Positions 1,271 to 17,975 of a stretch of 35,438 bases of DNA are shown piece by piece. The DNA comes from a virus: positions 1 through 35,438 of the IMG/VR virus record IMGVR_UViG_3300022816_000038; one strand, written 5' to 3'. The notes under the pieces are model-generated. The model saw only the letters and a program-made list of their open reading frames with translations. It did no database searches and was not told the origin of the DNA. How positions within the stretch are numbered: position 1 is the stretch's first letter; every line of letters begins with the position of its first letter. The position numbers and the translations under genes are program-made.

Positions 1271-2320
1271 TCACGATTGCCACAGTTGCGCTGGGTCGAT
1301 GCTCATATCCTGCAACCGTTTCGCCACGTCTGCCATCGGAGCGCCAGCGGCTATCGCCGCCTTGGCGTGCGCCAAGTATGTGTCCACTTCGGTAGGTGCG
1401 GAAGCCTGCGGATCAGTCATTAACCCCATTGGATCGGGCGGAGATGAATCTGTCGGCGGGGCTGGTTCGCCTCCTCGAAAATCGCGCGTCTTTTGATTCA
1501 ACGGTGGTTGTGCACGAGTAGGCGTTCTATTGAAATCTCCCTTGCTCGACAAATCCAGTAACTTCGACGCTTCCGGGCCGGGTTGGTCGGGCGACATGTA
1601 CTTCTTCTGCCACCACGAACTCAAATCTTTGCCCGGTTCGATGTATCCCCCGGCTTTCAGACGGTCGTAAGTAAGATCGTGTGTATCGGGATTGTGCAAG
1701 TCCTCCACGATTTGTCCCACAACAACCTTTGGTGCCATCCGTTTCGATACGACCTGATTCCCGTTGTCGTCATAGCTCACTTCGGGCAACGGAATCTTGT
1801 GCTGTTCCGCGCGCATCTTGAAATTCCGCAACGCCTGCGGGATACCAGCCAAGGTTGATGTTCCGTACTCGCTCGCCAAATCTTTGTAGTTCAGATAATA
1901 CTGTGCCGGATCGGATGTTTCCAACTTCGGATCGTTCAACTGCAACTTCTGCGCGCGATCCTGAAATTCTTGCAGGTAATCGTTCTTTTGTTTGTCTTGC
2001 TCGACCATGCCTGAAAATCCGCGCGAATACGCTTCCGCCTTCGTCTTGAGCGCATCACCAGCATCCTTGTAGTACTGAGTGTGTGCCTTCGTCATGGCAT
2101 CCTGAACTTCGGTATCCTTGTTCAGCTTCTCACGCTCGAAAGCGTGTTGATCCTGTGCAATCCGTTCCTGAGACGCGAGCTTCAATACCTCATCTTCGCT
2201 CTGCCGTTTTACCTCTGCGAACTTGGCAGCAGCAGCCAGACCAGAACCAAGAGCTGACAGGAATAGTTTCGGCCCCTCATTTTGTTGGGCGTCAGGAATA
2301 ATCGGAGCAACCAAGTCCAT
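1271..2320 (-). CDS. Putative internal virion protein, coiled-coil rich
   Basis: 349 residues, start ATG directly abutting the TAA of the upstream gene. Residues about 30-130 are rich in Glu, Lys, Gln and Ala and look like a long coiled coil. The C-terminal third (about 250-310) is Pro/Ser/Asp-rich and probably unstructured. No signal peptide, catalytic motif or known domain is recognised. It lies in the late operon between two other virion-type genes, so a structural or DNA-ejection role is the best inference. A short-tailed phage normally has two or three such proteins in this position. Confidence 0.7.
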   Translation of the reverse strand: MDLVAPIIPDAQQNEGPKLFLSALGSGLAAAAKFAEVKRQSEDEVLKLASQERIAQDQHAFEREKLNKDTEVQDAMTKAHTQYYKDAGDALKTKAEAYSRGFSGMVEQDKQKNDYLQEFQDRAQKLQLNDPKLETSDPAQYYLNYKDLASEYGTSTLAGIPQALRNFKMRAEQHKIPLPEVSYDDNGNQVVSKRMAPKVVVGQIVEDLHNPDTHDLTYDRLKAGGYIEPGKDLSSWWQKKYMSPDQPGPEASKLLDLSSKGDFNRTPTRAQPPLNQKTRDFRGGEPAPPTDSSPPDPMGLMTDPQASAPTEVDTYLAHAKAAIAAGAPMADVAKRLQDMSIDPAQLWQS

Positions 2321-3067
2321 TTATCCGCTCCAATTCGACCAGTTGTAAAATGGATTGTTGGCAGGCGCAGATGTAGCGTAATTCCCGCCGCCAGAACCAC
2401 CGCCACCAGCAGCAGTCGCGGGCACGCCGCCGCTCCTCTGTGCCCCCATTGCGCTTCCCATCCCGAATGATGCTGCCGTGCCGCCAATCGTTGCGATGGT
2501 GTTGAATAATCCGGCTGCGCCCGGATCAGGCGCGGCCAGAACGTTGTATTTGAATTGGTCGGTGGCCTGCTTGTAGAGATTATTTTTCGTAGTCTGGTCG
2601 GCTTGCTCCTTTGCGCTAATCGAGAATGGAGCAACTGCGCCTTCGGTCAGTCCAGCCCAACGTTGTGCTGAATTTTCCCCTTTGCCCATCAAGTCGAGAC
2701 TCGTTAGACCAAAGTCGCGAGCGGTCAGAGCCTTTGACATTCCGCTGCCCCCGAATCCGCCAGAAAGAGACTGGAATGCGGAGTTGCGGCGAACTTTGTC
2801 CTGAACGTCTTGTGGAATTTCACCGCGCAAGAGAGCCTGAGTGTTTTTAGACCCCTGCGCGACCATGTTGCCGTAGCCGGGCAAAATTTTCTCAAGAAGT
2901 GCCTGAATGTCCGGCATGTTGGCCGAATTTTCCGCTGTAGCCTTTTTTGCTTCTGCGCCAAGGTCTGTCGGTACGTAATCAGCGACACCCGGCTTTGATC
3001 CAAAAACGGATTTCTTGCCACCGGCGGAGTCAATCGCCATGTTCGCCATCCAATCAAAAAGTGCCAT
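2321..3067 (-). CDS. Putative virion protein with Gly/Ala-rich C-terminus
   Basis: 248 residues; the ATG overlaps the TAA of the upstream gene by one base (TAATG). The N-terminal 80 residues include a predicted amphipathic stretch (around 45-75). Residues about 185-215 form an Ala/Gly/Met-rich, weakly hydrophobic segment, followed by a Gly-rich linker and an Asn/Trp-rich tail. Such a combination is common in ejection or internal head proteins, but no family is recognised. Function is inferred from operon position. Confidence 0.7.
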   Translation of the reverse strand: MALFDWMANMAIDSAGGKKSVFGSKPGVADYVPTDLGAEAKKATAENSANMPDIQALLEKILPGYGNMVAQGSKNTQALLRGEIPQDVQDKVRRNSAFQSLSGGFGGSGMSKALTARDFGLTSLDLMGKGENSAQRWAGLTEGAVAPFSISAKEQADQTTKNNLYKQATDQFKYNVLAAPDPGAAGLFNTIATIGGTAASFGMGSAMGAQRSGGVPATAAGGGGSGGGNYATSAPANNPFYNWSNWSG

Positions 3068-4833
3068 TAGAGCCTCCCTCCCAAGTCCCCGAAGCCGTAT
3101 CCGGCTGTTTGCGCGCTCTGGACGTGCTGAATGCCAGACAGATACTCACGCAATTCTTTTTCGAGAACTGCGATAGCGTTTGCTTGCGATGCCTGAGCGT
3201 CCTGCCATTTTTCGGCCCGTTCCAGCATAATTGCTTGCGACATCAGACGCAGAGCCTCAAATGCCTTAATCACAAGTTCGTCTCCGCTGACTTTTTGAAT
3301 CCAGCGGATTTTGCAAATTGCGGTGAACTGAACAGAATTGGTCAGCGAACCGTTGAAAAAGTATTTCCTGCGCTTGAATCCGGTCTGCGGAAAATAAACT
3401 TCTCCACGATCCACGAAACGCTGACTGCACCCGCTGAACTTGCCGGGGCCGTTCTGCTGATATTCAAAGAGCACGGAACGCATATCAACCGGATGCCCGT
3501 CTATGTCCGTCACAAGAACCGCCTCAATATCGCGCGGGAACAGAACTTCTCCGCCCGTGATTGTTGCGTTCACCTCGCGTAAGGAACCCTTGAAAATCCC
3601 CTGCTCCATCAATCGCATTTCGGCCATGCTCAGGATACGTTCCAGTTCGGTCGTGGTCAGTTGTAGCCCGCCCTGCATTTCCAGCGCGAGTCTTGCAACA
3701 GCGTATCCGAATGATCCGGGCAGATAAACGCCTAGATCGGTCGTGTATGTCGTGTGACGCGCAAGTTCGGTCGCCTCGATCAGCTTAGCTTTCTGTGATT
3801 CAAATGCCTGCTGCTGCATTTGCTGCGCCAACGCGGCATCACCCTGAATCGCATATTGATTTTGGGCGGTCGCGGCAGCATCAGTCACAACGAAACTTTG
3901 TACCATTAGGCGAATATCGTTGTAATCGTCCCATGCCAACGCATCGGTCGCAGCCGTCACTGGAGCGTAAACCAATTCGGCAATCGTCCCATGCACGCTA
4001 ATTCTGCCCGAAATGGCAAGTTGGTTTCGATTGTCCACCAGCATTTGTTCGGCGCGATTGACAAGATACGTGATCTCCGCTTTTCCCATTGTCAGAAAGC
4101 CGCGAAGTTCCAATGCCAATCTCGCCCGCGTTCGGCCAAGCGTTCCTTCGGCGTAGGTAATCAGATCGCTCTGGTAATTTGCTTTTCGCTTGAGTGAGTT
4201 AGTCGGGTCAAGCTGATGTTTCTGAACTTCCGCCTGTAAAATCTTGAGAGCTTTTTGCAGATACCCTTCACCCTCCGGCATGGCGTTATTTTCATCCCGT
4301 TCAATCGACAAGATCGCCAGTTTCAGCGCGCGGATGTTCTGGACGATCAGATAATCTCCGTCTGCCGTGATCGGCACGTACCGTTTTGCGCCGGTAACGC
4401 GCACGGTTGAGGCTGCCGCCAGTCCGGGGTAAATGTATTTCCTGCGCAGAATTGTTGGATCGCCGCCGTCTGGCACAAGCCCGAGATCGATCAACGGATT
4501 GTCATGCGCGCTGGACGGATCAACGTAGGTGAAATTCGTTACCAGATTCCAGCCCTGCGTCACATCGGTTTGGGAGAGCACCGTTGCTCCGCTCAAGACT
4601 TCGACCTCGATTGCATTCTCAAGTTCTTTAGGAAGCAACAAGACTTGTTTGCCGGATTCGGTTGTGGAAACAACGTCGTATGTTGCCATTCCGTTTACAG
4701 GAATCATTTCATCCAAGATGGCTTTCGTGCCTTCATTAGCGCGAGGACGAACACGCGGGTCAGACGCACCGACGCCATTGGCTACAACTGTTGCCAACTC
4801 CGTCTTGCACACTCCGTAAGTCAGTCCACCCAT
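3067..4833 (-). CDS. Structural (tail/connector-like) protein with degenerate internal repeats
   Basis: 588 residues, coupled to the collar gene by a TAATG junction. The protein is built of degenerate repeats. Residues 237-262 and 380-405 match (ARLALELRG versus ARLALEMQG, each followed by a helical stretch with an RAEQML/MAEMRL core). Residues 130-180 and 488-540 also match (RRKYIYPG versus RRKYFFNG, then a beta segment and an ALKLAI/ALRLMS helix ending in ER). Beta segments 63-80 and 428-446 (VLLLPKELENAI, VLFPRDIEAVL) are similar too. This helix plus beta-sandwich pattern and the location fit an adaptor, connector or tail-tube type virion protein, but no named family was recognised. Confidence 0.75.
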   Translation of the reverse strand: MGGLTYGVCKTELATVVANGVGASDPRVRPRANEGTKAILDEMIPVNGMATYDVVSTTESGKQVLLLPKELENAIEVEVLSGATVLSQTDVTQGWNLVTNFTYVDPSSAHDNPLIDLGLVPDGGDPTILRRKYIYPGLAAASTVRVTGAKRYVPITADGDYLIVQNIRALKLAILSIERDENNAMPEGEGYLQKALKILQAEVQKHQLDPTNSLKRKANYQSDLITYAEGTLGRTRARLALELRGFLTMGKAEITYLVNRAEQMLVDNRNQLAISGRISVHGTIAELVYAPVTAATDALAWDDYNDIRLMVQSFVVTDAAATAQNQYAIQGDAALAQQMQQQAFESQKAKLIEATELARHTTYTTDLGVYLPGSFGYAVARLALEMQGGLQLTTTELERILSMAEMRLMEQGIFKGSLREVNATITGGEVLFPRDIEAVLVTDIDGHPVDMRSVLFEYQQNGPGKFSGCSQRFVDRGEVYFPQTGFKRRKYFFNGSLTNSVQFTAICKIRWIQKVSGDELVIKAFEALRLMSQAIMLERAEKWQDAQASQANAIAVLEKELREYLSGIQHVQSAQTAGYGFGDLGGRL

Positions 4834-5552
4834 TATGCGTACCCCACGAATTTAACCAACCCCAGCGCGAAATAAGGTGGCAATGCAGGGATAACTGGAG
4901 GAGTCGGATTACCTGCGTCCGCGTCAATTAAGGTTTGGGTTGTGCCAGCCCCATAAAGTCCACTTCCGGCGTCCGGCGCGTTACCGTCCGCCTTCCATTT
5001 TCCGACCTTCACTTCTGCCGTGGCCGGTCGGTATGTATTGGCATCGCTTAAAAGGATGCTGTTATCTCCGCCTAACGCCAATGCAGCTCCGCTCACAGAC
5101 GATCTCCAGTCGGATGGATGCCCGATAGCAAGATCAGTCATGTGCGCGGCCACAATGAAACGGTCTGACAAATCAGACGTGGCATTATTGCCATTGCAAA
5201 GCGCCCAGCCGTCCCACTCGCCACCGACTATCCCGAGTCCCGTCCCGTCAAAATCAACCGCCGGATCGCCCTGATAATAAGAGAGTTGACCTATTTGACC
5301 TTTGTATTCCCGTCTCCATGAACCAGAATAATAGACATAGGTACCCATCGGCCTTCCGCCATTATCCGTTCTGTGCCAGACTTTATCCTGATCGCCCACT
5401 GCCGGCGTGGCTGATCCTTGGACATAGGGAACGTACGTGCCAGTCACGACCGCCGTAATCAACGTCCGTAAAAGCACGATCAGTTGCGTCAGCGTTGTTG
5501 GCGCTGCCGCAGGATCAGGCGATGCAATAGAGACTGCGACTGGTAAACTCAT
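4833..5552 (-). CDS. Tail-collar-like / tail fibre protein
   Basis: 239 residues, ATG overlapping the previous stop (ATGA). Residues 112-135 (EWDGWALCNG followed by DLSDRF) match the hallmark of phage tail-collar and microcystin-dependent-type domains, in which a GW-x-LCNG turn is followed by a PDL-x-x-RF motif. The extreme C-terminus (ALPPYFALGLVKFVGYA) is the usual aromatic closing strand of such proteins. The N-terminal 40 residues form a helix that could trimerise or attach to the tail. Likely a distal tail or fibre component; host binding is plausible but not shown. Confidence 0.7.
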   Translation of the reverse strand: MSLPVAVSIASPDPAAAPTTLTQLIVLLRTLITAVVTGTYVPYVQGSATPAVGDQDKVWHRTDNGGRPMGTYVYYSGSWRREYKGQIGQLSYYQGDPAVDFDGTGLGIVGGEWDGWALCNGNNATSDLSDRFIVAAHMTDLAIGHPSDWRSSVSGAALALGGDNSILLSDANTYRPATAEVKVGKWKADGNAPDAGSGLYGAGTTQTLIDADAGNPTPPVIPALPPYFALGLVKFVGYA

Positions 5553-7357
5553 GGCACCCTCGCTTTATCGTCCTCGACCAGTTGTTTGGCGTGCAGCCGA
5601 AGTTTTCTTAGAGCGCAATGGCCGGTACCCCGGATACGGGGCTGAAATTCAAAACCCCTTCTCATGCTTCTGCCGGTAAATGATGCGTTGTCCACGTCGT
5701 TCTCTGGTTTCGCTATTGTGCGCCGTGGAAAGAAGTTATGCAAGAGCGTCGGAACACCCCCCGACGTAATCGCCTGCGCTGTTCCGACTACATCAATCTC
5801 TGGCAAAGTTTGCCATGCCGTCCAGATGGGATGCTGGTCGGGCCGGTATTCGAGTGAAATCGTTAACGGGTCTTGCACATCATCAATCCAAAGATCGGCT
5901 CCAAACAATTCCTTTTCGTTGAACGGACTTTGGAAGTTGAGTGATTTGGCGACAATCTCCCACGGAATAGGCGTGTCGCCGCCGTCCCGAATACCGTCCT
6001 TTGTGATCTCGGATACAACAAAATTCGGCCTGCCAGCAAGCGGATCGTTAGTCAGCGAAAGACCGAGCGAATAAGCCCGATGAACCCCGCCAAAACTCCC
6101 TTCGATTAGCTGCTGAGTTCGCAGTTGCGTCCAGTGACCGTCCCATGCCGGTTTAGTCGCCTGACCAAAAGTGGAAAGAACGTCAAAATCCAAGGACAAC
6201 AGCCCATTATGGAACACCCGCCATTCGTTCGGTTGCGGTGTGCATGTGCAAATCAGCCGGTTATCGAAATTGATTGCAGACCCGTAATCGAGCCATTCGG
6301 TTGTGTCGTTATCCGTCCAGATACGAACATTCGTGCTGATCGGAAGATGTGCCCAACTCGTTGCTTCTGCGCGAGCCTGACGATAGCTGCGCCATCCATC
6401 GTCACTCCTGAACCAGACATCCTCTACAACCGACACAATCGAGCGCCAGCCGCGCGCTCCGGTATTATAAAGGAGCACCCGTTGAAAGGCAGATTGTTTC
6501 CATTGATCGCGAGGAATCGCCAGTTGGAACGAGGTAATGCCGCCTTCTGAAAACGCGAGAAGTTCGCCGTCGCCCACGCTTGAATCTTGTTGTGGAAGAA
6601 AGTGCATACCGGAAAGTTTCCCGAGAGAGAATGCGATGCTCGCTGTGCCTCCTTCGTTCAGAAAAGTTGTTTCAGTGAATTTCAAGACCGCCGCGCCTGG
6701 ATCATTCGCGTCGATTCCACTTCCGTAAAGATCGCTGAACTCAATTTCCCTGAAATCGTTTACGACAACGATCAATCGTCCCATTCCATAGGCCATGATC
6801 GTACCAACCGGAACCTCATCATCTTTTGCCCGACGTGCCACCACTCCGTCATAGATGATCGGCTTGGATTGGCCGTCTTGGATCACGCAAAATCTGTCTG
6901 CTTGGACGAAATACGCTCGGTTGTTGGTCGGGAAATTGAGTTTGTCGAGAGCAATTTCCTGCACATCTAAATCCGTGACTTCGCCGAATTTTATTCCGAA
7001 TTGTGGCGTTAATTTGAACAGCCGTCCCCCTGCCGTCATCATTATGCACTCGGGTTTGCCGCCGCCCGGAGAATAATAGCCAGCGCCTTGAAACAGACCT
7101 TGGTAAAACGTATCCAAACCTTCCGGGCCGCTCAGTCCAACAAAAAACCCTTGCGAATCGTAGTGAACACCGACATCGCTAAAGCTGATCGAGCAAGCCG
7201 CGAAAGCAGGTCGAGTGGTTGGCACCCCGCCACGAAACACCATGTTGTCGGCGGTCGCGCATTGAATTTCGTCTATCAGGCTAGGATTGCGCCCGCAATC
7301 GACCCCCGCTGCCAAGCTGGAGAATCCATCGTACGCTCTATTTTGGTCGGAAATCAT
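5549..7357 (-). CDS. Putative tail (nozzle/tubular B-like) protein
   Basis: 602 residues, 4-base ATGA overlap with both neighbours. The N-terminus contains a DNMVFRGGVPTTRPAF segment, resembling the 'N-x-x-x-R-x-G-x-x-x-RP' opening of beta-propeller-type tail nozzle proteins of short-tailed phages. The remainder is beta-rich with many Trp, Asp and Gly, as expected for stacked strands, and the C-terminus ends with a basic RMRRG..RIRGTGH segment similar to those at the end of such proteins. The assignment rests on this pattern and on position; it could also be another tail hub component. Confidence 0.6.
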   Translation of the reverse strand: MISDQNRAYDGFSSLAAGVDCGRNPSLIDEIQCATADNMVFRGGVPTTRPAFAACSISFSDVGVHYDSQGFFVGLSGPEGLDTFYQGLFQGAGYYSPGGGKPECIMMTAGGRLFKLTPQFGIKFGEVTDLDVQEIALDKLNFPTNNRAYFVQADRFCVIQDGQSKPIIYDGVVARRAKDDEVPVGTIMAYGMGRLIVVVNDFREIEFSDLYGSGIDANDPGAAVLKFTETTFLNEGGTASIAFSLGKLSGMHFLPQQDSSVGDGELLAFSEGGITSFQLAIPRDQWKQSAFQRVLLYNTGARGWRSIVSVVEDVWFRSDDGWRSYRQARAEATSWAHLPISTNVRIWTDNDTTEWLDYGSAINFDNRLICTCTPQPNEWRVFHNGLLSLDFDVLSTFGQATKPAWDGHWTQLRTQQLIEGSFGGVHRAYSLGLSLTNDPLAGRPNFVVSEITKDGIRDGGDTPIPWEIVAKSLNFQSPFNEKELFGADLWIDDVQDPLTISLEYRPDQHPIWTAWQTLPEIDVVGTAQAITSGGVPTLLHNFFPRRTIAKPENDVDNASFTGRSMRRGFEFQPRIRGTGHCALRKLRLHAKQLVEDDKARVP

Positions 7358-8751
7358 TTCTTTTTGGAAACTGGAGCTTTACCACTGGTCGCACGATTGT
7401 ATAAATTTGGCGTCCTGATTACGCTCCCCGAGATAGGGTCGGTGGTCGGATCAAGCATCCATTGACCTTGCGAGAATATGGTGTGCCCTTCGTCGCTTAC
7501 TCCGACCGGATTATTGGCACGCCCAGGATCACCGCCCCCTAACAAGTATGCGTTCGTTGTTTGGTCTGCCATCCAGTTCCCGGTTACATTGTTTTGAGAA
7601 AACCGTTGCGCCTGATCCATCGGACCCGCCGGAAGTGCGGCGCGAACTGGGGGCGAAACCGCTGTTCCAGTTGGCGTAGTTCCGTCTGGATTCAACTGCC
7701 CTGATGCTTTTAACGCAGCGGTTTCTTGCGCTCCCGCTGCCTCGGCGTCTGAAAAAGATGGCGGATCAGATTCGCCTGGAGTGGTTGAACTGGTATCAGC
7801 GTAAGTTACCGTCCCGCTCCCAACTGGAGTTTGATAATGGTCGCCACCAAATCGCAGCATCGCCATCGGAGTACTGAGAAATTGCCCGAGCGACATGTTC
7901 CCGCCGAATTGCCCAACATCATTTCCACCGGGATTGTAACGCGGTGTGGGCGGTTGATCCCAATATGGAGCGCCGCCGGTTCCCTTCCAATTTACATCAA
8001 CCTGCGGGCCATCCGAAGCGTTCACAGGATCGGGTCGCGGTCGAAGGTTTGGACTGGCGTAACCCGCACCGGATGGGTCCATTGTTACTGGTGAATCTGG
8101 ACCGCCAATCCAATCTTCATTTGGGTCCGATATGGGGCCGGGAGAACGTCCACCACGAGACGCAATCATTGGCGTATCTGGCGCTTGATAAACTGTCGTG
8201 GGTAGATTCCTGTCGTCATATGGACCGGCAGGATTATATGACGGGTTGTTGACGCCCCCTGAAACTCCAGCAGTTGCACTCGGTTCATCCTGTTGAGCGG
8301 AATACCACGGTTTATCACGAATCGACCATTCGCGATTATTAAGCCCCGGACTAGCGTATCCAGCCCCGGAACTGTCCATTGCGCCCGGCGGAGCTGCCGT
8401 GGATTGTGGCGACGGAGTTGCAGTCGGAGTCGCGACTTCCGGCCCCGAACCGCTATCTTGAAAATAATTTTTGTAAGGAGCGTTCGGGCCGCTGCCAATT
8501 AGCGGCATGTGATTCTGGTCGAAGTCATTATAGAAAGGTCCGTAAAAGTCTCCGCTGGACGGCGAAGGACTCGCGCTTGGCGCTGGAACCGCAGCGCGCG
8601 GAGCTGGAGTTCCCCCGAAATCCAACGCGTCACTGGCCTGCTGCACATCACTGGTAAGCACGCGACCGCCGGGATAAGGAATTGTTGGATTCGGCGCGAT
8701 TCCGCCAAACCCTCCAAACCCGTTAGCTAGTGGCTGGTACCTTCTCCCCAA
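7354..8751 (-). CDS. Pro/Gly/Ser-rich virion-region protein
   Basis: 465 residues of strongly biased composition (Pro, Gly, Ser, Asn, Asp), likely disordered. A 13-residue unit occurs twice, M-D-[SP]-SGAGYASP-x-L, at residues 125-137 and 224-236. No hydrophobic core or enzyme motif is evident. The start used is TTG at 8751, right after the TAA of the upstream gene and 6 bases from a GAAG; no earlier ATG fits. It sits between capsid and tail genes, so a linker, decoration or tail-completion role is possible but unproven. Confidence 0.65.
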   Translation of the reverse strand: MGRRYQPLANGFGGFGGIAPNPTIPYPGGRVLTSDVQQASDALDFGGTPAPRAAVPAPSASPSPSSGDFYGPFYNDFDQNHMPLIGSGPNAPYKNYFQDSGSGPEVATPTATPSPQSTAAPPGAMDSSGAGYASPGLNNREWSIRDKPWYSAQQDEPSATAGVSGGVNNPSYNPAGPYDDRNLPTTVYQAPDTPMIASRGGRSPGPISDPNEDWIGGPDSPVTMDPSGAGYASPNLRPRPDPVNASDGPQVDVNWKGTGGAPYWDQPPTPRYNPGGNDVGQFGGNMSLGQFLSTPMAMLRFGGDHYQTPVGSGTVTYADTSSTTPGESDPPSFSDAEAAGAQETAALKASGQLNPDGTTPTGTAVSPPVRAALPAGPMDQAQRFSQNNVTGNWMADQTTNAYLLGGGDPGRANNPVGVSDEGHTIFSQGQWMLDPTTDPISGSVIRTPNLYNRATSGKAPVSKKK

Positions 8752-8752
8752 C

Positions 8753-9151
8753 TTATTCTTCTGCCCCCGGTGTGATTACGAAACCCTCAAAAGACACTCG
8801 CACGTCGTCGCTGAGGTTGGCCGGAACAGCGGTTGCGATGTACGGCTCGATCTCAACCTCTTCGTCCAACAGTTTTCGCTGTTCCTCGACAACTTTCTTC
8901 AAGCCTTGTTTGGAGAATTTGTACTGTTGACCTTCCATCAGCACCGCCTTGGTTTTTTCGTCCTCCAAAGCTTCATTCAGACGAATGTCCTCGTTCCTGG
9001 CGTTGTAATCCTCGATTGGTTTCTGGCATCGCTTGAGCATGCGAGCCACGGCGTAGCTCAGTTTGGTTTGCGGTTCATCTTTGTCTCGCATCGCCGTCCA
9101 GCGTGAAGCGGAATTAGCGAAGTTGATTACATCTCGAAGGGTTTTTTTCAT
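8753..9151 (-). CDS. Small helical protein downstream of capsid gene
   Basis: 132 residues, mostly charged and helical. Residues 28-105 (LSYAVARMLKRCQKPIEDYN, then a Glu/Lys-rich stretch with KKVVEEQRKLLDEEVEIEPY) resemble small phage proteins in which a helical pair is followed by an acidic strand (a DUF1617-like layout); the resemblance is only by eye. No good Shine-Dalgarno precedes the ATG. It follows the capsid gene after an 89-base gap holding a strong hairpin. A structural or assembly role is inferred from position only. Confidence 0.7.
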   Translation of the reverse strand: MKKTLRDVINFANSASRWTAMRDKDEPQTKLSYAVARMLKRCQKPIEDYNARNEDIRLNEALEDEKTKAVLMEGQQYKFSKQGLKKVVEEQRKLLDEEVEIEPYIATAVPANLSDDVRVSFEGFVITPGAEE

Positions 9152-9190
9152 AAAATGAGATTATGCCGCGCGCGTTCAACTTGCAATAAC

Positions 9191-9239
9191 CAACTCAGGT
9201 CTGCGGCACCAGACCTCCGATGCCGCAGGGAATGAGTTG
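9191..9239 (-). other. Nested hairpin directly after the capsid gene
   Basis: On the transcribed strand the capsid stop codon is followed at once by an outer 7-bp stem (CAACTCA with TGAGTTG) enclosing an inner 7-bp stem (TGCGGCA with TGCCGCA). An alternative 6-bp pairing, AGGTCT with AGACCT, uses part of the inner stem. No T-run follows, so it is not a classical terminator. A partial terminator, a processing site or a 3'-end stabiliser of capsid mRNA are all possible. Confidence 0.6.
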
Positions 9240-9240
9240 A

Positions 9241-10470
9241 TTAGATGCTGTGGACCAGCTCGTAGTTCGGCTCGTAGCAGCTCGTCTTGAGCGTGCGGAG
9301 CGGAGCGCAGCGTTTGTGGAAAATGCTGAACCCGAACCATGTGTCCATCGGCCTTGTGGCCGACGTAAACACGGCGTCGAAAAACCCTTTTTGGTTTCTC
9401 GGATTGCATTTCACGTCCTGGATGTTGAGCCAAGCGAAGTCGCCCATGTAATCCACAGCCTTGAAGGAGGTACTGCCTCCGGGGCTGGTGATTTGGTTTG
9501 GCGTTTCGATGGTCATCACCTGTTTCATCACGACGTAGGATTTGGCGTAGGAAGCGTACAGATATGCCTTTTGGAACGTCTGTTTCTTGCCTTTCACCGC
9601 AGCCACGGGATCAGAATACGGCTGTACCCGAACGAGGTTGCCCCCGACGATCTCGTACCGAGGCTGGAACGGATTGTAAACGTGCTGGTAATTGTCCCAT
9701 GCGCGCTCCATGCCGTATGCCTTGGTCAGCAACTTCACCTTGTCAGGATCGTACCGGAAATCCATCCGAAGTTCCGGGTCTTGAGCCATCAGGTCAGCCG
9801 ACGTGTTGAAGTCGGTGAAGAGTTGCAGTACCGGCGCTCCCATCGTGGTCAAGCCAATCCCGCCTTCCTCGCCCGCTCCATCGCCCATCAGCCACTCGTA
9901 GATTTGGCGGAGGGTGCCCGTAAGCAACTTCGACGTTGGCGGGTTAGCGCCGCTGAACGAACTGCCGTTGATGTCGAATGAGCCGTTTTCGGTGATCTTG
10001 TGCTCGCACATCCGCTCGTACTCATCCTGAATACGGTTTTCCCAAACGTAGTGCGTTACCCAGCCAAGGTTCTTGTCCAAGGCCGCGAGCATGTCCTTGA
10101 CGCGATGATCGTCCCGCAAATCTTCCAAACAGAACCAGTCCGTTCGGATATTGCGGCTCGATTTGCGCCAGGAGCGCGTGCTCTGGCCGAACTCGATCAG
10201 CTCGGGGTCAAGATCGCATTGGCTGTCTGCTGTTCCGGTTGACGGTGTATTTTCTGTCCACTCATCCCCGACATTCGACGGAACCGTTCGTTCCCAAATG
10301 ATAGAGTTGTGAACCACGCCCAAGCCATCTTCCCATTTTTCAAAGGGGACGGCGTTGCGCCATCTCCCGCGCGGGGATAGGCGTGTCGCTAATGCGCCCT
10401 GCATGTAGCGACCTGTTTCCGCGATGAGCATATTATCAATCTCTTCGCATGTGTAATCGTAAGCTGGCAT
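9241..10470 (-). CDS. Major capsid protein
   Basis: 409 residues from the ATG at 10470. This start is chosen because GAAAGG sits 9 bases upstream; an in-frame upstream start adds only 7 residues and has no ribosome site. The product is soluble, alpha/beta, without signal or membrane segment, and of the normal size for a coat protein. It follows the portal-scaffold block, is the only gene here with a long structured leader upstream and a strong hairpin downstream, and so is expected to be highly expressed. The call rests on position, size and composition rather than on a recognised motif; Trp-rich stretches (GRWRNAVPFEKWEDG) are seen near the N-terminus. Confidence 0.75.
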   Translation of the reverse strand: MPAYDYTCEEIDNMLIAETGRYMQGALATRLSPRGRWRNAVPFEKWEDGLGVVHNSIIWERTVPSNVGDEWTENTPSTGTADSQCDLDPELIEFGQSTRSWRKSSRNIRTDWFCLEDLRDDHRVKDMLAALDKNLGWVTHYVWENRIQDEYERMCEHKITENGSFDINGSSFSGANPPTSKLLTGTLRQIYEWLMGDGAGEEGGIGLTTMGAPVLQLFTDFNTSADLMAQDPELRMDFRYDPDKVKLLTKAYGMERAWDNYQHVYNPFQPRYEIVGGNLVRVQPYSDPVAAVKGKKQTFQKAYLYASYAKSYVVMKQVMTIETPNQITSPGGSTSFKAVDYMGDFAWLNIQDVKCNPRNQKGFFDAVFTSATRPMDTWFGFSIFHKRCAPLRTLKTSCYEPNYELVHSI

Positions 10471-10479
10471 ACTTAAGTG

Positions 10480-10485
10480 CCTTTC
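10480..10485 (-). promoter_or_regulatory. Ribosome binding site of the capsid gene
   Basis: GAAAGG on the minus strand, 9 bases before the ATG at 10470. It decides the start in favour of MPAYDY rather than the in-frame codon 21 bases further upstream. Confidence 0.65.
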
Positions 10486-10522
10486 TTGCAAACTGTTAGC
10501 CAGTAATGTTCCACGTATGTAT

Positions 10523-10822
10523 CTATGCTCGATGAAGATTCAAATGGCACGACCTGCACAGCCAGATAACTTCGAGTGGTTTGGAATAATCCTCGTGGTG
10601 CATCTGCGATTCGGTTGAACCGCAATGCGCGCAATTTTCCTTAACGAGCTTTCCCCGTTTCAGATAAACATGCGCGTATGATCGGGCATTCATCTTCATC
10701 CTTTGAATCGGATTAAGCCTGTGCGATTTCCACCATTTTCGGAGATACGCACTATGACATTCCAAACAATACCTACCAGAAGCCCTTTGAGGCTTCCCGC
10801 ATTTACAAACACTCTTGGTCAT
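10523..10822 (-). CDS. HNH homing-type endonuclease, free-standing
   Basis: 99 residues. Cys pairs at 6/8, 19/22 and 64/67 are followed by HH at 75-76, then a PLEV-x-WLC-x-x-CH-x-x-LH motif (residues 82-97). This is the zinc-stabilised HNH fold of small phage endonucleases, in which the last His pair coordinates the catalytic metal. It lies alone between the structured leader and the capsid gene, 52 bases before the capsid start, and breaks an otherwise continuous assembly operon. That is the usual behaviour of a mobile, selfish HNH gene. Its only ribosome site (AGGTGG) touches the start codon, suggesting weak expression. Confidence 0.85.
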   Translation of the reverse strand: MTKSVCKCGKPQRASGRYCLECHSAYLRKWWKSHRLNPIQRMKMNARSYAHVYLKRGKLVKENCAHCGSTESQMHHEDYSKPLEVIWLCRSCHLNLHRA

Positions 10823-10924
10823 CCACCTGTTCTACATTAACAGGCCGATTCAAGTCAATCTTTCAAAGAACAAAACACGCGGTACTAGCGTTTTCCGGTG
10901 ATGAAGTCCGGTACAATCCAGTTT

Positions 10925-11002
10925 GCTCGCAGGCTCGGTCGAGCTATACCCTTACGCCTGATTGTTTTGTGAGTAGGCTCGGACTCACACGCTTACGCCT
11001 GA
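10925..11002 (-). promoter_or_regulatory. Two tandem hairpin/pseudoknot RNA units upstream of the HNH and capsid genes
   Basis: On the transcribed strand two units follow each other (11002-10968 and 10961-10925). Each begins with TCAGGCGTAAG and ends with a hairpin whose 8-base loop, CCGAGCCT, is identical in both. The stems differ in sequence but both pair: TGTGAGT with ACTCACA in the first, GCTCG with CGAGC in the second. AGGC in the 5' box can pair with GCCT in the loop, so each unit could form an H-type pseudoknot. Conserved loop with changed but still paired stem is direct evidence of selection for RNA structure. No known riboswitch class is recognised. Confidence 0.6.
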
Positions 11003-11012
11003 AAATGTATGT

Positions 11013-11031
11013 GGCAGACTTTGCGCCTGCC
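11013..11031 (-). other. Short hairpin after the FlbD-like gene
   Basis: Minus-strand GGCAG pairs with CTGCC around a 9-base loop, 8 bases after the TAA of the upstream gene. The 5' arm contains CAGGCGCAAAG, nearly the same as the CAGGCGTAAG box of the two tandem units that follow, so it may be a third, degenerate member of the set. The downstream ACATACATTTT is too weak for a confident terminator. Confidence 0.4.
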
Positions 11032-11039
11032 GTCAAGAT

Positions 11040-11288
11040 TTATTTTTCGGCAACCAACTGCTCAACTTGATCAAGAGATTCCTGAACGAAAGCTCCGCTG
11101 TTGTTTTTGAACTGGATGAACGTCAAAGAGTCGGTCTTTGTCTGGCCGACGATATGGATGCCTCCGTCAGTGGCATTTGCCAATTTTCCAGTCGTGACAG
11201 TCGCGATGATGTCGGGGTTTATCAGCATGGGCTGAAACTTTGTGCCATCGCCTTCCTTCGTGATTTCCGTTAATTTTATCAGCTTCAT
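11040..11288 (-). CDS. Small FlbD-like protein of the head operon
   Basis: 82 residues. The layout, an N-terminal MKLIKLT strand, then an INPDIIATV segment, a beta hairpin, and a final ESLDQVEQLV helix, is like that of FlbD-type small proteins (strand, NPD-x-I turn, strands, helix). The resemblance is structural and by eye; no flagellar role is implied. It overlaps the scaffold gene by 4 bases (ATGA), so it is co-translated with it. Perhaps a head-assembly accessory protein. Confidence 0.65.
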   Translation of the reverse strand: MKLIKLTEITKEGDGTKFQPMLINPDIIATVTTGKLANATDGGIHIVGQTKTDSLTFIQFKNNSGAFVQESLDQVEQLVAEK

Positions 11289-12511
11289 TTCCTGTACGCT
11301 CCAGTTCGCAGTCTCGAAAGAATATCGTCGGGAGCAACACCGTCGCCCTCAACTTTAGTTGCGATCCGGTCTTGACCGAGTTTCGGATCAGCGCCTTTCA
11401 GTTCACGATTTTCTTTGTCGAGAGCGTTCGCGCGTTTCCGTTCGGCTTGCCACATTGATCGCAGCGGCCCTGCGGATGCAGCCAGATATGCGGCGATGGC
11501 TGCTTTTTGCGGGCTGCTTTTCAGCAGAATCTCCTGCGCAACGGCATCAATCTCGTCAACCTGATTGTCCCACCATTCAAATTCCGGCTTGTTGACCTTC
11601 TGCAAGGTTTCGAGCTTGATATTCTCCAGCAAATCTGAACGCGCGGCCCCGAGCAAAGAAACCCATTCCTTCGCCATTTTCTCGTTATCTTCGTGGCGTC
11701 GGATCGTCTCGTTTTTCGCTTCTTCTTGAGCGAACTGCTTGGCGTTTGCCAGTTTTTCGTTTATGACTCGTGAATCAGACTCGATTCCCTCGATCAGCCG
11801 CTCGAAACGTCCGCGCATCATTGGGCTTTGAATGCCCCTGGCGATTTCCTCAAGGGCCTCAATCCGTTGTGCCCCGACCAGAGGCATTGCGCGACCCAGT
11901 GCGTCAGCATCACCGCCAGCGTCCTTTACCAACCTGTACGCGTCATCGAACTTTTGCTGGCGCGGTTTCATGTACTTCTCTTGAAACGCAGGACTGGCCT
12001 GCAAATCGTACCGCTCAAGCCGGGATAGCGCCTCATCACGCTCCTTGGTGGTCATATCCAGAACGGTCTTGATTTCTGGATCGTCGGTCGGCACGACGGG
12101 CCTCGATTTGAGGGTCAAATTCTCCGTCTTGAGAGTAGCCAGTTGATCCCTGAACTTCCTCAAGTCGGCTTTCTTTTTTGCCGTCTGCGCCTGCTCGATG
12201 GCAGCGTCAATCTCGGCCAAATCGGGGTCAGGAGCGGCAGGAATTACCGGAGCCGTCTCAAGAGCGGCAAAATCGGGCGCTAGACGGCTCGTCAGGTCGT
12301 CTTTCTTCGTTTCCTTGGGCAGAGTTGCGGCAGCGGCTTCCGGCTCGACCTTGGGCTTTGCTGGCGTCTCCGGTGCGTCGGGAGCTTCCGTGGTTTCTGG
12401 TGGATCATCGACCAGATTGCTCGGAATATCGAAAAGCGATTTGAGATGTATTTCTTTCGCTGTCGGTTCGGCTGTTTGTGGCGGCGGTTCGGCTATTGCT
12501 GATTCAGGCAT
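11285..12511 (-). CDS. Probable scaffold protein
   Basis: 408 residues, highly charged, without a hydrophobic core. The N-terminal 90 residues are Pro/Ala/Glu-rich and disordered. Residues about 95-290 are long charged helices rich in Lys, Glu, Ala and Gln, and the C-terminus is basic and helical. This composition, and the location between portal and major capsid protein, is typical of internal scaffolds that direct coat assembly and then leave or are digested. No protease domain is seen in it. Confidence 0.75.
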   Translation of the reverse strand: MPESAIAEPPPQTAEPTAKEIHLKSLFDIPSNLVDDPPETTEAPDAPETPAKPKVEPEAAAATLPKETKKDDLTSRLAPDFAALETAPVIPAAPDPDLAEIDAAIEQAQTAKKKADLRKFRDQLATLKTENLTLKSRPVVPTDDPEIKTVLDMTTKERDEALSRLERYDLQASPAFQEKYMKPRQQKFDDAYRLVKDAGGDADALGRAMPLVGAQRIEALEEIARGIQSPMMRGRFERLIEGIESDSRVINEKLANAKQFAQEEAKNETIRRHEDNEKMAKEWVSLLGAARSDLLENIKLETLQKVNKPEFEWWDNQVDEIDAVAQEILLKSSPQKAAIAAYLAASAGPLRSMWQAERKRANALDKENRELKGADPKLGQDRIATKVEGDGVAPDDILSRLRTGAYRK

Positions 12512-12516
12512 GATTT

Positions 12517-12813
12517 TTATTCGGTTTCTGGTGCTGGCTCTGCGTAAGTTTGGTCTGCTGCTGTTCCTCCTGGTGTTGGAGTCTCAATCGGAACGGCCCC
12601 GAGCACGAAACGAGTCAGGCATTGCCGCCAACCAGTTTGCTCGCCAAGCATGATATATGCACCGTGCGGCGTAATGCTGGGCGGTGCGACCTTATTCATC
12701 GGATTGTCATCTTGCTCAAATGTTTCGAGCCAAATTTTGAACGTATCGTCCTCAAAAATCTGTCGCATCCGAGCTACTAGTTCAGGCGAGTTACGAAATT
12801 GGATACAAGTCAT
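12517..12813 (-). CDS. Small protein between portal and scaffold
   Basis: 98 residues; ATG overlaps the portal TGA by 4 bases. The N-terminal half is acidic and helical (RMRQIFEDDTFKIWLETFE), the middle carries an LGEQTGWRQCLTRF segment, and the tail is Pro/Thr/Glu-rich. Not recognised. Its fixed place between portal and scaffold suggests a head-assembly role. Confidence 0.7.
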   Translation of the reverse strand: MTCIQFRNSPELVARMRQIFEDDTFKIWLETFEQDDNPMNKVAPPSITPHGAYIMLGEQTGWRQCLTRFVLGAVPIETPTPGGTAADQTYAEPAPETE

Positions 12814-15335
12814 GGCTTAGCTGTGACGGGTTGCTTGGGCTTGGGCAGCGCACTCGGTGGTACTCTCGTAAGCGAAGGGCCGGGATCAAGTCCCGCCTGT
12901 CGCTCCATCTGCTGTTGAATAAACGGACGGGCGTCTTTGTAGCTGATAGATTCCGAGATTTTCTGTGCTGTAGAAGGCTCCTGTTCGTCCTGCGGAGCAG
13001 CAGTTGCCCCGTTCGGTTGCTGAACACTAGCCGTTGCATTTTTCAGCCCAATACCGTGTGCTGTTGACAAATCTTTCAGGCGCAACTGAACATCTTGCTT
13101 CTGTTGCTTCAATGCCATATCGCCCTGCATCTTGGTCTGCTTTATTTGCAAGTCACCGTGAACTTTTGCCAGCGCGGCGATCAAAGCCGGGTCGGGCTGT
13201 TGCTGCGGTTGATTATCGGCCTGCGCTTTTTGCGCTTCGTCAATGTGCTGCTTCAACTGGTCGGCCATCTTCGACATTTCGATCCAAGATTTTGTCATCT
13301 GATCCACTTGCGCTTTGCGTGTCGGATCGCCCTGCATCGGCACCAGATGATCGTGCATGTGCGGCCCGGCCTGCTCAAGATGCACGTAAAGACCCATCGG
13401 ATCGCTCTGTCCTGCCTGTAATTCTTTCGCGTGATCTTGAACGTCCTGCCCGTGCATTTGGAAATGAACAAAATTGTCTTGGCTTGGATCGACCAAAACT
13501 TTCCCGCCAGGAACTCGAAGGAAATTGTTTTCGAGTTGCGCCAGGCTCATGTGTGAATCGACAATCTGCGGGGTATCGTACGGCGGAAAAATCGCATCGG
13601 CGTACGTCTCGCCAGCGTAGGAAGAGACAACCGAACGAAGAGTAAATGTGCGACCGCGCTCGTCCATTGTCGGCACAAGAGAAAGTAATTTGTCCCCGAT
13701 CATTTGGCGCATCTGGATGCTACCGTTGCCAACCAATCGAGTTGCTTTGATCCGGCAGAAGTTATCGAAATCCATGATCTCTTCTGGAATCTGGTCTGTC
13801 ACGATGCAGCTTCGATAGAATTTCAATGCACCACGTTCGCTCGGGGTGAGCGCGGTTTCGTTTTCGATGTCCACGGGGGCAACATCTTTCCGGCTCGCAA
13901 AGAGTTTTTTACCCATTGCCAATATACGCCGGAAACGTTCCCTATGGAAACGGTCGAGATATTGCAGGTATCGGCTGGCATCGAAATCGCTCAGTACCGA
14001 TTCCCGCGTCTCCTTGATTTGCTGTTGCCCCAAAGTTGGTTCTGGTTCGGACTCCCATCGCTGCCGATATTGGCCGGTGTTTTCTGCCAAGGTTTTGTTA
14101 AGCTCGCGCTTCATCAGGAGCGGAGATTCGAGATTCGGCGCGATCCGTTGCTGCACGACTTCGTACTTCGGCCCGATCACTGTCCCGCCCGATACGTCGG
14201 TGAATGCTGCTTCCTGTAGGGCCTGGCCGTCCCTGGCCTGAACGATTACGCCACTCGCTTTCATGGCCCCGTCCAAACTACGGCACGTTAGTCGATCTGA
14301 GGCGCTGAAAATATCGAACACCTTCGGTCCTGCGCCCTTAATGGAATGCCATTGCCCGTCAGGGCCAACGTCATAGAGGAATGGGCAAATGATTTGGCTC
14401 CAGCTTTCGTACCGGCCAATCTTGCGGAAAAGAAAACCGCTGTTCGGATCGCCTTCTGCGTCGGTTTCAACTGTAGCCTCTTCAACCTGCAAAACAATGA
14501 AGTGACTGATCCGGTTGGTGAACTCTTTCTGGAAAAGGTCGGTGACAAAGATTCGTTTCGACTTGGAATCCCATCCCGTCGCACCCTTCCGCATCTCAGC
14601 TTCGTAGTACTCAAAATTCAGGCCGTAGGTGCCTCGTAAATTCTCGGGAGCGGCGTCCATGATTGCCTTTTTACAGGCAGGCACGTTCCATTTCATCGCC
14701 GTAGCCGCTGATTCGTTCTTGATCTTCGCCCAAAGTTGCGTTGGCGTGTACGATCGCCGACAAGCAGCGGTATCCCATTCGTCGATGTCGGCAGAAGCGT
14801 CGTCAGGAACCATGATCTGACCTGCCATGCGGGATTTGGCGTGCCAATCTTCGGTATCTTCCCAAACCATCGGGCCGCTGCCGTGCGCGACCATCTGGAA
14901 TTGCGACCGCTGCATGTGCATATCAAGGCTGTCATCATCCTCGTTCGCGTACTGGTAGCGGGTTGCAATTTTACCGGCCCATTCCGCGAGCAAGCCGGGA
15001 TAAGCACTGCCGTAATCGAGGGTCAACTGAACGAATCTATCGGCCTTGAACGCAAGTCCGTAGTACGGCGTTTTAGCAGCGGCAATGAATCCCTCTGCCT
15101 CGCGTAAAGTGAAATTGGCGCGGTCGCCTTGTCCTTTGTCGCGAAGCAATCCCGGCCAAGGGGGATTGCCGTTAAGCATTCCGTTGAACTTTGCACGTCG
15201 CTTGGCGCGAATGCCCTCGGCTTTAACGAGAACGCCGATTGTCGTGCGCGCGTCTTTTGCGCTTCCGATACACGAGTCAGGAATTTCGTATGTCTTGCCC
15301 TGATCCTCAGAAGTTAAAGTTGCGACGGCCTGCAT
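12810..15335 (-). CDS. Portal (head-tail connector) protein
   Basis: 841 residues, long for a portal but in range for those of short-tailed phages with extended C-terminal domains. Residues 1-600 are mixed alpha/beta. Residues about 690-780 are Gln/Lys/Asp-rich helices that look like a C-terminal helical barrel or crown, and the last 40 residues are Pro/Lys-rich. It lies between large terminase and scaffold, the standard portal position. It would form the dodecameric channel for DNA packaging at the unique capsid vertex. No single signature motif was recognised, so the call is positional plus size. Confidence 0.8.
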   Translation of the reverse strand: MQAVATLTSEDQGKTYEIPDSCIGSAKDARTTIGVLVKAEGIRAKRRAKFNGMLNGNPPWPGLLRDKGQGDRANFTLREAEGFIAAAKTPYYGLAFKADRFVQLTLDYGSAYPGLLAEWAGKIATRYQYANEDDDSLDMHMQRSQFQMVAHGSGPMVWEDTEDWHAKSRMAGQIMVPDDASADIDEWDTAACRRSYTPTQLWAKIKNESAATAMKWNVPACKKAIMDAAPENLRGTYGLNFEYYEAEMRKGATGWDSKSKRIFVTDLFQKEFTNRISHFIVLQVEEATVETDAEGDPNSGFLFRKIGRYESWSQIICPFLYDVGPDGQWHSIKGAGPKVFDIFSASDRLTCRSLDGAMKASGVIVQARDGQALQEAAFTDVSGGTVIGPKYEVVQQRIAPNLESPLLMKRELNKTLAENTGQYRQRWESEPEPTLGQQQIKETRESVLSDFDASRYLQYLDRFHRERFRRILAMGKKLFASRKDVAPVDIENETALTPSERGALKFYRSCIVTDQIPEEIMDFDNFCRIKATRLVGNGSIQMRQMIGDKLLSLVPTMDERGRTFTLRSVVSSYAGETYADAIFPPYDTPQIVDSHMSLAQLENNFLRVPGGKVLVDPSQDNFVHFQMHGQDVQDHAKELQAGQSDPMGLYVHLEQAGPHMHDHLVPMQGDPTRKAQVDQMTKSWIEMSKMADQLKQHIDEAQKAQADNQPQQQPDPALIAALAKVHGDLQIKQTKMQGDMALKQQKQDVQLRLKDLSTAHGIGLKNATASVQQPNGATAAPQDEQEPSTAQKISESISYKDARPFIQQQMERQAGLDPGPSLTRVPPSALPKPKQPVTAKP

Positions 15336-15336
15336 C

Positions 15337-15594
15337 TCAGTTTCTTTCTGGAGCGACCAATTCCATCACGCCGTTGTTGCGTCCGTTCAATAGCAGCGGT
15401 GGCCTTTTACGAATCGGGAAAAACTTAATCTCCTTCGCCTTGTGCCGAATCCGGCGAGACAACTTCGACATGACGACGCGAATATTTGGGTCTGCGACGG
15501 TCACTGTCTTTTTGTCGGTCAACGAGTTTACGATGGCGCAGTAATTTCCGGTCTCTTCGTCAAAGCCAATGCCAAGATCGAACAGCTTTTTCAT
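15337..15594 (-). CDS. Small protein upstream of portal
   Basis: 85 residues; strand-rich N-terminus followed by a strongly basic middle (KLSRRIRHKAKEIKFFPIRKRPP). It overlaps the preceding gene by 4 bases and ends one base before the portal ATG. Not recognised. Basic charge allows DNA or RNA contact, but this is a guess. Confidence 0.65.
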   Translation of the reverse strand: MKKLFDLGIGFDEETGNYCAIVNSLTDKKTVTVADPNIRVVMSKLSRRIRHKAKEIKFFPIRKRPPLLLNGRNNGVMELVAPERN

Positions 15595-16211
15595 TCGCTG
15601 ATGTAATTTTCACCGCCACGTTTTCGCCAACAGAAAATTGGATAAGCTTCCTGCTTTTCGGATGAATCAACTTCGGGTTTTTCAAGAATCGACATTGAGA
15701 AGTGAACTAACGATGCTACGGGACACGAGCAAATCGCGCAAGCTTTGTTTACGAGCAAATCGTCGTACGGAGTTTTCTTCTGCGCGATACTGCCAGTAAT
15801 TAGCGATGCGATCTTTACGCAAGTTCCACATCCCTGCGGCTGAACGCGGAGATAGCAGCCACCACAAATCTGTGCGCGCCGATTCGCCTCTTCCTGCGAA
15901 GCGGTGTTGCCAAAGAGAAAAGCGAGGTACGGTTTCACGCCACGAACAATGTCTCCCCACCGCAGTCTTGTGTTTACGAAAAAAAAATCTCCGGGTTGCT
16001 CCTGCTCGCAAAAGTCAGGCCCGATTTGTTTGCAAAGCTGATCCTCTGCTGCCGCTTCGGTAATCGGAGCATAGCCATTCGCAGTTCGATGTTTGACAAT
16101 CGAATCCCACCAGTCCCACCAGTTTACTCCTCTGCTGACAAATCCGCTCTCGGCATGGGTGTACCGAAACTGGTCTGGCACGCCAAGCGATCTGTCTTTC
16201 AGGCGGAGCAT
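15591..16211 (-). CDS. Cys-rich, probably zinc-binding protein next to terminase
   Basis: 206 residues. The N-terminal half is Trp-rich (NWWDWWDSIV). The second half has a Cys cluster: RAQICGGCYL, QGCGTCVK, then KACAICSCPV, seven Cys in CxxC-like spacing followed by a hydrophobic VASLVHF strand. The pattern R-x-x-x-C-x-x-C...C-x-x-C...C-x-x-C-x-CP is seen in other phage proteins near the terminase or portal genes and probably binds one or two zinc ions. It lies 3 bases after the large terminase gene. Role unknown. Confidence 0.7.
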   Translation of the reverse strand: MLRLKDRSLGVPDQFRYTHAESGFVSRGVNWWDWWDSIVKHRTANGYAPITEAAAEDQLCKQIGPDFCEQEQPGDFFFVNTRLRWGDIVRGVKPYLAFLFGNTASQEEANRRAQICGGCYLRVQPQGCGTCVKIASLITGSIAQKKTPYDDLLVNKACAICSCPVASLVHFSMSILEKPEVDSSEKQEAYPIFCWRKRGGENYISE

Positions 16212-16214
16212 TCG

Positions 16215-17975
16215 TTATACCTCTATCAGATAGCCACTATCGGCGTCAAGCAATGCGGCCTGTTCACGTCTAAATTTTTCCCACCGATTATCTGTCTGCC
16301 CGTTTCCCGTCTCGCCGCTCCCACTCAGATTTTGCGTGCGACGAAACATATCCAAAAGAACTACGGTCGCATCCGCTAAGTCAGGAGATTTTCGGGTGCG
16401 CTTTTTCATATCGGCCTTCGACTCAACCATCTTGAGATTGCCGCGCATGGAATAAATCCGCTGGCAAAACTCGATGGCCGTTTCGGTGTCGAGTCCACGG
16501 ATAATTCCGTTCTGCACCATAGTCCGTGCCTGATACCAAAGCTCTGTCACCTTGTAGAGATATTCCTGAGAACACGGTTTCGGATCGTGCTCGCTTACCG
16601 GAAGGTCACTGGCTCTTCCGTTGAAATCCGTCAACGTAATTGCAGGCGACCATTCTCTTTGAAAAATGCTGGCAAGGCCGCGCCCGGTTCCTGTGCAATC
16701 TGTAGCAAAATTTTCTGGCGCAACGGGCGGATCGTGCTGCTCACACAGCAGTCGAACCTGTTCTAAGATTTGATATTCAATGGGGATTTTAGAAGTCGCG
16801 CTGACTTTGATCTGAACCAATTTTCCAAGCTCGATGCCGGTCTTTCCGTCCGTCATTGCCCCGCATTTCCCGAACCGAAGCATACATCTGTCGCCGCCCT
16901 CAAAGGCAGGGTCGAGTCCAGCTCCCATCACGTAACTACCAACCCAAATCGCTTTCTCTTTCGCCTTGAACTTCTCGATGATCGACGGCGACAGAACAGT
17001 TTTTGTTACGCCCTGCGGCGCGATGAATCCTCTGCGGGTGCGCCAGAACTCTGGTGAATCTTCGCCGTACTGGTTGACCGCCGAATCAATATCCCTCTGC
17101 CGCAACAGACCGGGATAATACTGATCGCCTTCCTTGACGCGCGGACTTTCGAGACCATCCAGATGAACGCATACGCCTCTCTTAGTCGTCCACAAATCCA
17201 TTTCAGCCGTGATCGTGTGATAGCCGTCAACGGGTTCTGACATCTGGCCCAACGTGTCCAGCTCGGTATCTGGATTGCCAGGAATGATGAGTTGGAAGTT
17301 TTCCGATCCAGCCTCAATCGAAAGGCACGCCGTAACAATCGCGAAGTTCGTCGCCTGCCCTTCGTCCAGTCCGGCATAGGCATACGTGTTGTGGAACCCG
17401 ATTATTTTGTCAACCGCCTTCTGAATATCTCCTTCATCCTGCCCCGTCGCGACACCAAATATCCCGGCTTCATCAGACCCCTTTTCAAATCGGATGGCAA
17501 AATCGCTGGCATGGACGTACCCAAAACCGGGATTGGCGAGCCGATGATATTTCAGAACCTCTTTCCAGACCCGTTTCCGCAACCCCGGCAAACTCGTGGT
17601 TGTCAGAACAACGATGGTATTGGCCGGACTCGCGTACCACGCTACCAAAAAAAAGACGGCCATGCAGGTCGTTTTCCACGAGGCGTTCGGTCCCCACACC
17701 GCCGTACACCAGTGCCCCTCACAGAACGTCTGTATCATCAGCTCCGACCATTCATTCCAGATCAGCGCATCATCTTTCCGAAAATCGTACGCCATTTTCC
17801 GCTGCTCCGCGTACACCCGCCTCGGGATGTTCCACAGCAAATCAATAGCGTTCCGACAATGCTGGTACCTAGTCAGTCCGCTCTGTTCCCGCGCCCAGCC
17901 ATGCGCAAAACAGAACAGCTCCACCGTTGCCGGGGTCGTACCGTCGGGGAAACTCAGGCCGTAGGCTTGGATCAT
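16215..17975 (-). CDS. terL: Terminase large subunit
   Basis: 586 residues, normal length. N-terminal ATPase: a Walker A-like loop at 95-102 reads GPNASWKT, with Trp100 where Gly is expected before the Lys. A hydrophobic strand plus TTTS (about 121-128) follows, and Walker B with catalytic Glu is YAYAGLDE (D204, E205). The C-terminal RNase H-like nuclease shows its three acidic sites: GAGLDP (D355), NFATDCTG (D426) and KSPDLADA (D532/D535). The enzyme cuts concatemeric DNA and drives it through the portal. It overlaps the small upstream gene by 4 bases. Family is clear; the exact packaging type (cos or headful) is not readable. Confidence 0.92.
   Translation of the reverse strand: MIQAYGLSFPDGTTPATVELFCFAHGWAREQSGLTRYQHCRNAIDLLWNIPRRVYAEQRKMAYDFRKDDALIWNEWSELMIQTFCEGHWCTAVWGPNASWKTTCMAVFFLVAWYASPANTIVVLTTTSLPGLRKRVWKEVLKYHRLANPGFGYVHASDFAIRFEKGSDEAGIFGVATGQDEGDIQKAVDKIIGFHNTYAYAGLDEGQATNFAIVTACLSIEAGSENFQLIIPGNPDTELDTLGQMSEPVDGYHTITAEMDLWTTKRGVCVHLDGLESPRVKEGDQYYPGLLRQRDIDSAVNQYGEDSPEFWRTRRGFIAPQGVTKTVLSPSIIEKFKAKEKAIWVGSYVMGAGLDPAFEGGDRCMLRFGKCGAMTDGKTGIELGKLVQIKVSATSKIPIEYQILEQVRLLCEQHDPPVAPENFATDCTGTGRGLASIFQREWSPAITLTDFNGRASDLPVSEHDPKPCSQEYLYKVTELWYQARTMVQNGIIRGLDTETAIEFCQRIYSMRGNLKMVESKADMKKRTRKSPDLADATVVLLDMFRRTQNLSGSGETGNGQTDNRWEKFRREQAALLDADSGYLIEV

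Follow-up and report, generated by a model that had tools for sequence, protein, structure and literature searches.

Upstream of a putative major capsid gene, a phage genome and its relatives carry what sequence comparison argues is a structured RNA of mRNA sense, with its shape kept by compensatory changes. The window analyzed here is the whole 35,438-nt stretch of IMG/VR virus record IMGVR_UViG_3300022816_000038 (positions 1 to 35,438). Two tandem RNA units were located on its minus strand by sequence inspection (10925-11001), matching the description given in an earlier sequence-only reading. Scans of IMG/VR with the box-and-loop pattern and the downstream protein retrieved a near-identical record, 3300022816_000024 (L006), and the relatives 3300025898_000008 (L003/L005) and 3300044455_000043 (L007), whose downstream proteins are 91% and 78% identical, respectively. 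Both L003/L005 and L007 have two units at the corresponding place.

Architecture of the tandem units

In the window, TCAGGCGTAAG is found twice on the minus strand (10992-11002 and 10951-10961), as is CCGAGCCT (10975-10982 and 10931-10938), each copy of the latter within a stem. The box of each unit contains AGGC, which is complementary to GCCT in both cases. The features of the two units are:

10992..11001, minus strand: unit 1 box CAGGCGTAAG, identical in the window, L003/L005, and L007
10997-11000, minus strand: unit 1 pseudoknot 5' strand, AGGC
10968..10989, minus strand: unit 1 hairpin, TGTGAGT-CCGAGCCT-ACTCACA, 7 bp
10983-10989/10968-10974, minus strand: unit 1 stem arms, TGTGAGT/ACTCACA
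10975-10978, minus strand: unit 1 pseudoknot 3' strand, GCCT
10951..10961, minus strand: unit 2 box TCAGGCGTAAG, identical in L003/L005 and TC-GGCGTAAG in L007
10956-10959, minus strand: unit 2 pseudoknot 5' strand, AGGC
10925..10944, minus strand: unit 2 hairpin, GCTCG-ACCGAGCCTG-CGAGC, 5 bp
10940-10944/10925-10929, minus strand: unit 2 stem arms, GCTCG/CGAGC
10931-10934, minus strand: unit 2 pseudoknot 3' strand, GCCT

A descriptor of the tandem architecture, composed after that architecture was known, matched the window solely at these units and gave 0 matches in 20 dinucleotide shuffles. Single box-and-hairpin matches lacking the repeated words number ~90-110 per strand in the window, the same as in shuffles; because such matches are common by chance, the weight of the evidence rests on the tandem repeat and its conservation. 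The pseudoknot-free folding energy of the region was ordinary (z = -0.41), so energy alone would not have backed the claim, and pseudoknot-free thermodynamic folding prefers the box-loop helix to the hairpin in 3/6 units. Elsewhere in the records of the window, L003/L005, and L007, no paired GGCGTAAG words are present, and third matches are isolated single words (context inspected in the window). One of the proposed features did not hold up: the third word, CAGGCGCAAAG (11019-11029), which had been placed in a hairpin just upstream, lies directly 3' of TTGACG and is missing from both relatives. A leader peptide was also rejected: the GTG that follows box 1 starts a frame of 12 codons in L003, but in the window TGA comes immediately after it, and L007 lacks this GTG.

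Compensatory changes in stems and box-loop pairs

Standard pairs are retained at 36/36 positions in the stems of the six units from the three phages, although the stem sequences differ. The unit 1 arms read TGTGAGT/ACTCACA in the window, TGTTGGT/GCCAACA in L003/L005, and GTCGAGT/GCTCGAC in L007; those of unit 2 read GCTCG/CGAGC, GCGG/CCGC, and GTCGGG/CCCGGC, respectively. Stem length varies on both arms in concert. When the 3' arms were permuted among the units, the observed order alone reached full pairing (1/720), against a mean of 17.5 cells paired. The sequence-only reading had claimed compensated stem substitutions and named, as an outcome that would count against it, a failure to find homologous, covarying units among related phages; the comparison bears the claim out on both points. 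Three stem pairs are non-Watson-Crick, all of them U-G on the mRNA-sense strand and never A-C, which argues that the folding strand is mRNA-sense RNA.

The box and loop are complementary in 6/6 units. In unit 2 of L007, the box A and the loop U are both missing, leaving C-GGC/GCC-G. This paired deletion, a single event, supports box-loop pairing within one unit. Together with the complementarity in all units, it agrees with the H-type pseudoknot that had been proposed for each.

Conservation and distribution

The box, the loop, and a 30-nt downstream block are nearly invariant across the three phages: GGCGTAAG, CCGAGCC, and the block ACTGGATYGTACCGGAYTTCATCACCGG are retained, the last with two differences. 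The noncoding leader is better conserved than the gene behind it. In blastn of the window against L007, identity is 81% for the leader and 73.8% for that gene. At fourfold-degenerate sites of the capsid-like gene, identity is 59% between the window and L003 and 40% between the window and L007, close to saturation. Variable stems around invariant loops and boxes indicate, at the level of sequence, that these parts are probably recognized by something, beyond stabilizing a fold.

IMG/VR was scanned with the unit, the tandem, the downstream block, and the protein as queries. Other matches were sifted by stems and tandem words, after which their contexts were read. Among the matches listed, the element was found only in L006, L003/L005, and L007; the remaining listed matches that were inspected lacked the architecture and were taken as chance. 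The sample comprises only three independent lineages in the collections searched. GTDB bacterial and archaeal genomes gave a single match, in Microtetraspora (L150), also attributed to chance. A blastn search against phages and plasmids returned no record carrying the element, and a weak match within a Rhizobium phage terminase gene was discounted in the same way. Against Rfam 15 (4227 families, including STAXI and the known riboswitches), the window had no match at the gathering threshold, and the three leaders gave only chance-level matches at E<=10. The earlier statement that no known riboswitch class fits is consistent with this absence of an Rfam family match. The sequence family, the tandem form, and the target gene appear new, while structured mRNA leaders and tandem pseudoknots are already known.

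Probable extension to the ribosome-binding site

The first description covered part of the element, which appears to continue as far as the ribosome-binding site. Its wider anatomy comprises:

11031..11036, minus strand: TTGACG, a hexamer resembling a -35 element; distance to CAGGCG exactly 29 nt in each of the three phages
10919..10926, minus strand: GCAAACTG, 5' arm of a possible closing stem (P3), after unit 2; inverted repeat in L003 and L007
10891..10924, minus strand: conserved downstream block AAACTGGATYGTACCGGAYTTCATCACCGGAAAA, two differences among the three phages
10895-10911, minus strand: possible CCGG/CCGG hairpin in the downstream block
10523..10822, minus strand: HNH endonuclease gene (PHROG 2340, E 1.7e-16)
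10488..10495, minus strand: CAGTTTGC, P3 3' arm, directly 5' of the Shine-Dalgarno sequence of the capsid-like gene; invariant
10480..10487, minus strand: Shine-Dalgarno sequence AAGAAAGG of the capsid-like gene
9241..10470, minus strand: downstream gene encoding 409 aa, assigned from gene order as a putative major capsid protein

The spacing of TTGACG suggests that the transcript begins at unit 1 or slightly ahead of it, since counting 6-7 nt from a -10 element would put the start at unit 1. Consensus-based promoter scans require T at position 6 and called no promoter. Farther downstream, GCAAACTG, which shares its first two bases with the stem of unit 2, is complementary to CAGTTTGC. A P3 stem is plausible on this complementarity; both arms are invariant and so offer no covariation support.

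The leader precedes the same capsid-like gene in all three phages, directly so in L003/L005 and L007. In the window and L006, an HNH gene comes after the leader; in the window it sits between the two P3 arms, both of which are intact. This gene is missing at the site in L003/L005 and L007, in line with the suggestion that it came to separate the RNA from the capsid start later, by secondary insertion. As a separate observation, GGCA of the Shine-Dalgarno sequence and UGCC of the start region could form a weak 4-bp hairpin (10463-10487, minus strand) in all three phages, with a loop length that differs among them.

Proposed function and alternatives

We consider it reasonably probable that the element is a cis-acting structured 5' leader RNA that controls how well the putative capsid mRNA is translated or how stable it is. 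Transcription would probably begin at or just before unit 1, from the presumed promoter, and the first ~77 nt would fold into two H-type-like units, each with a hairpin loop of 8-10 nt that pairs with the AGGC box lying upstream of it. P3, if formed, would together with the conserved block bring the units beside the ribosome-binding site. The invariant boxes and loops may be recognized by a trans-acting factor, which would most likely be a protein of phage or host origin touching both copies, and the folded or bound state could alter translation initiation or mRNA lifetime. One possible route would be a swap of short GGC/GCC pairings, with the box pairing to the loop in the pseudoknot, the box GGCGU to the start codon AUGCC, and the loop GCCU to the Shine-Dalgarno sequence. 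Compared with shuffled boxes, pairing between the box and the start codon gave values of 0.088, 0.032, and 0.198, which is not better in two of the three phages; this pairing hardly varies among them and so offers no covariation support.

Several other functions would explain parts of the same pattern. Like HK022 putL, the element would lie just 3' of a promoter heading a long operon and comprise ~80 nt in two structural units (PMC9378689), which raises the idea of a put-like RNA that would bind RNA polymerase during transcription and keep it from pausing or terminating within the head-and-tail genes. We regard this as unlikely, given that putRNA consists of two stem-loops with a triplex and no pseudoknot is mentioned (PMC9378689), that the coding strand showed no terminator-like site from the leader to the following gene, and that the sequence resembles no Rfam family. 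If transcription does start as the TTGACG spacing suggests, the structure would form the very 5' end of the transcript, where a passive stabilizer or RNase processing site could serve the abundance needed for a capsid message; however, invariant unpaired loops and boxes exceed the needs of a plain stabilizing hairpin, making this explanation improbable.

The same invariant loops with variable stems, along with the tandem arrangement and the possible stem beside the ribosome-binding site, are typical of riboswitches. A metabolite-binding riboswitch with tandem aptamers is nonetheless quite unlikely, as metabolite logic is not evident for a head gene, the matches listed place the element in a single phage group, and Rfam gave no match. 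Tandem repeats in a phage intergenic region might also be a DNA element, such as an origin, a packaging site, or a protein-binding site, read as repeats. The covarying stems, the G-U pairs, which are wobbles in the mRNA sense alone, and the constant position before one gene leave that prospect very slim. Type III toxin-antitoxin RNAs, with ToxI-like tandem pseudoknots, were also considered and rejected: no ToxN/CptN/TenpN gene lies directly downstream, where the HNH endonuclease gene and the capsid-like gene have no ToxN/CptN/TenpN Pfam match. Under the favored reading of a cis-acting leader, a narrower and decidedly tentative version is that these tandem pseudoknots form a new class of regulatory RNA that lets a dsDNA phage sense some protein or small molecule and tune expression of its major capsid gene accordingly, with capsid or scaffold feedback on the capsid mRNA as one example.

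Relationship to known systems

The balance among phage structural genes is usually ascribed to promoters, gene order, and the strength of ribosome binding. If the leader acts as proposed, it would add a compact new example of head assembly controlled at the RNA level, one that belongs to none of the catalogued RNA families, and at ~110 nt it is small enough for direct tests. The T4 gene 32 leader is the nearest worked-out case; its pseudoknot is the first contact of the repressor in autogenous repression by gp32 (PMC535899). In both systems a pseudoknot, predicted here from sequence, lies in the 5' leader ahead of a phage gene's ribosome-binding site, and both have an adjoining homing endonuclease gene: HNH between the leader and the gene here, and segG next to gene 32 in T4, though not in RB69 (PMC535899). 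The T4 operator differs in having one ~28-nt pseudoknot before an SSB gene, whereas two tandem units precede a head-region gene here, and its UUAAA/UAAA repeats at the ribosome-binding site are not repeated in the three leaders.

STAXI motifs also form tandem pseudoknots, with two or three repeats, and lie partly near phage-type genes (PMC2864571). They differ in their UUCG tetraloops and in their proximity to ssDNA-binding, integrase, and antirestriction genes, and their Rfam model gave no match here. HK022 putRNA is similarly a two-part phage RNA just 3' of a promoter (PMC9378689), the promoter here being a presumed one, but has two long stem-loops with a triplex, serves early genes, and is described without a pseudoknot (PMC9378689). 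The tandem pan motif and tandem riboswitches share the placement of two like RNA units in a row before a controlled gene (PMC2864571); they have another sequence and fold and are associated with metabolic genes. In these systems, the arrangement suggests a dimeric protein or cooperative binding (PMC2864571).

Downstream gene and genome context

The sequence-only reading had placed the RNA upstream of a capsid gene. Its position before the capsid-like gene stands, while the capsid identity of the 409-aa protein is our assignment from gene order alone. This protein had no match in PHROGs, Pfam, the PDB, or phage records, and its AlphaFold prediction from a 3-row alignment had a pLDDT of 29; the model was not used. 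A terminase-like gene (16215-17975) has distant phage terminase matches. Most structural-region genes tested (window 1271-17975), including those encoding the 841-aa and 409-aa proteins, had no PHROG, Pfam, or phage-record match, and these unmatched genes point to a poorly sampled phage group.

Elsewhere in the window, a protein with an IS1-like DDE transposase match (PF03400) and a weak KorA-like N-terminus is encoded at 29328-30173 (minus strand), and a second HNH endonuclease gene (HNH_3, PF13392) at 23636-24337 (minus strand) is of a different type from the one adjoining the leader. A 65-nt stretch at 23242-23306 shares 81.5% identity with the most distant relative and exceeds most surrounding matches by a clear margin.
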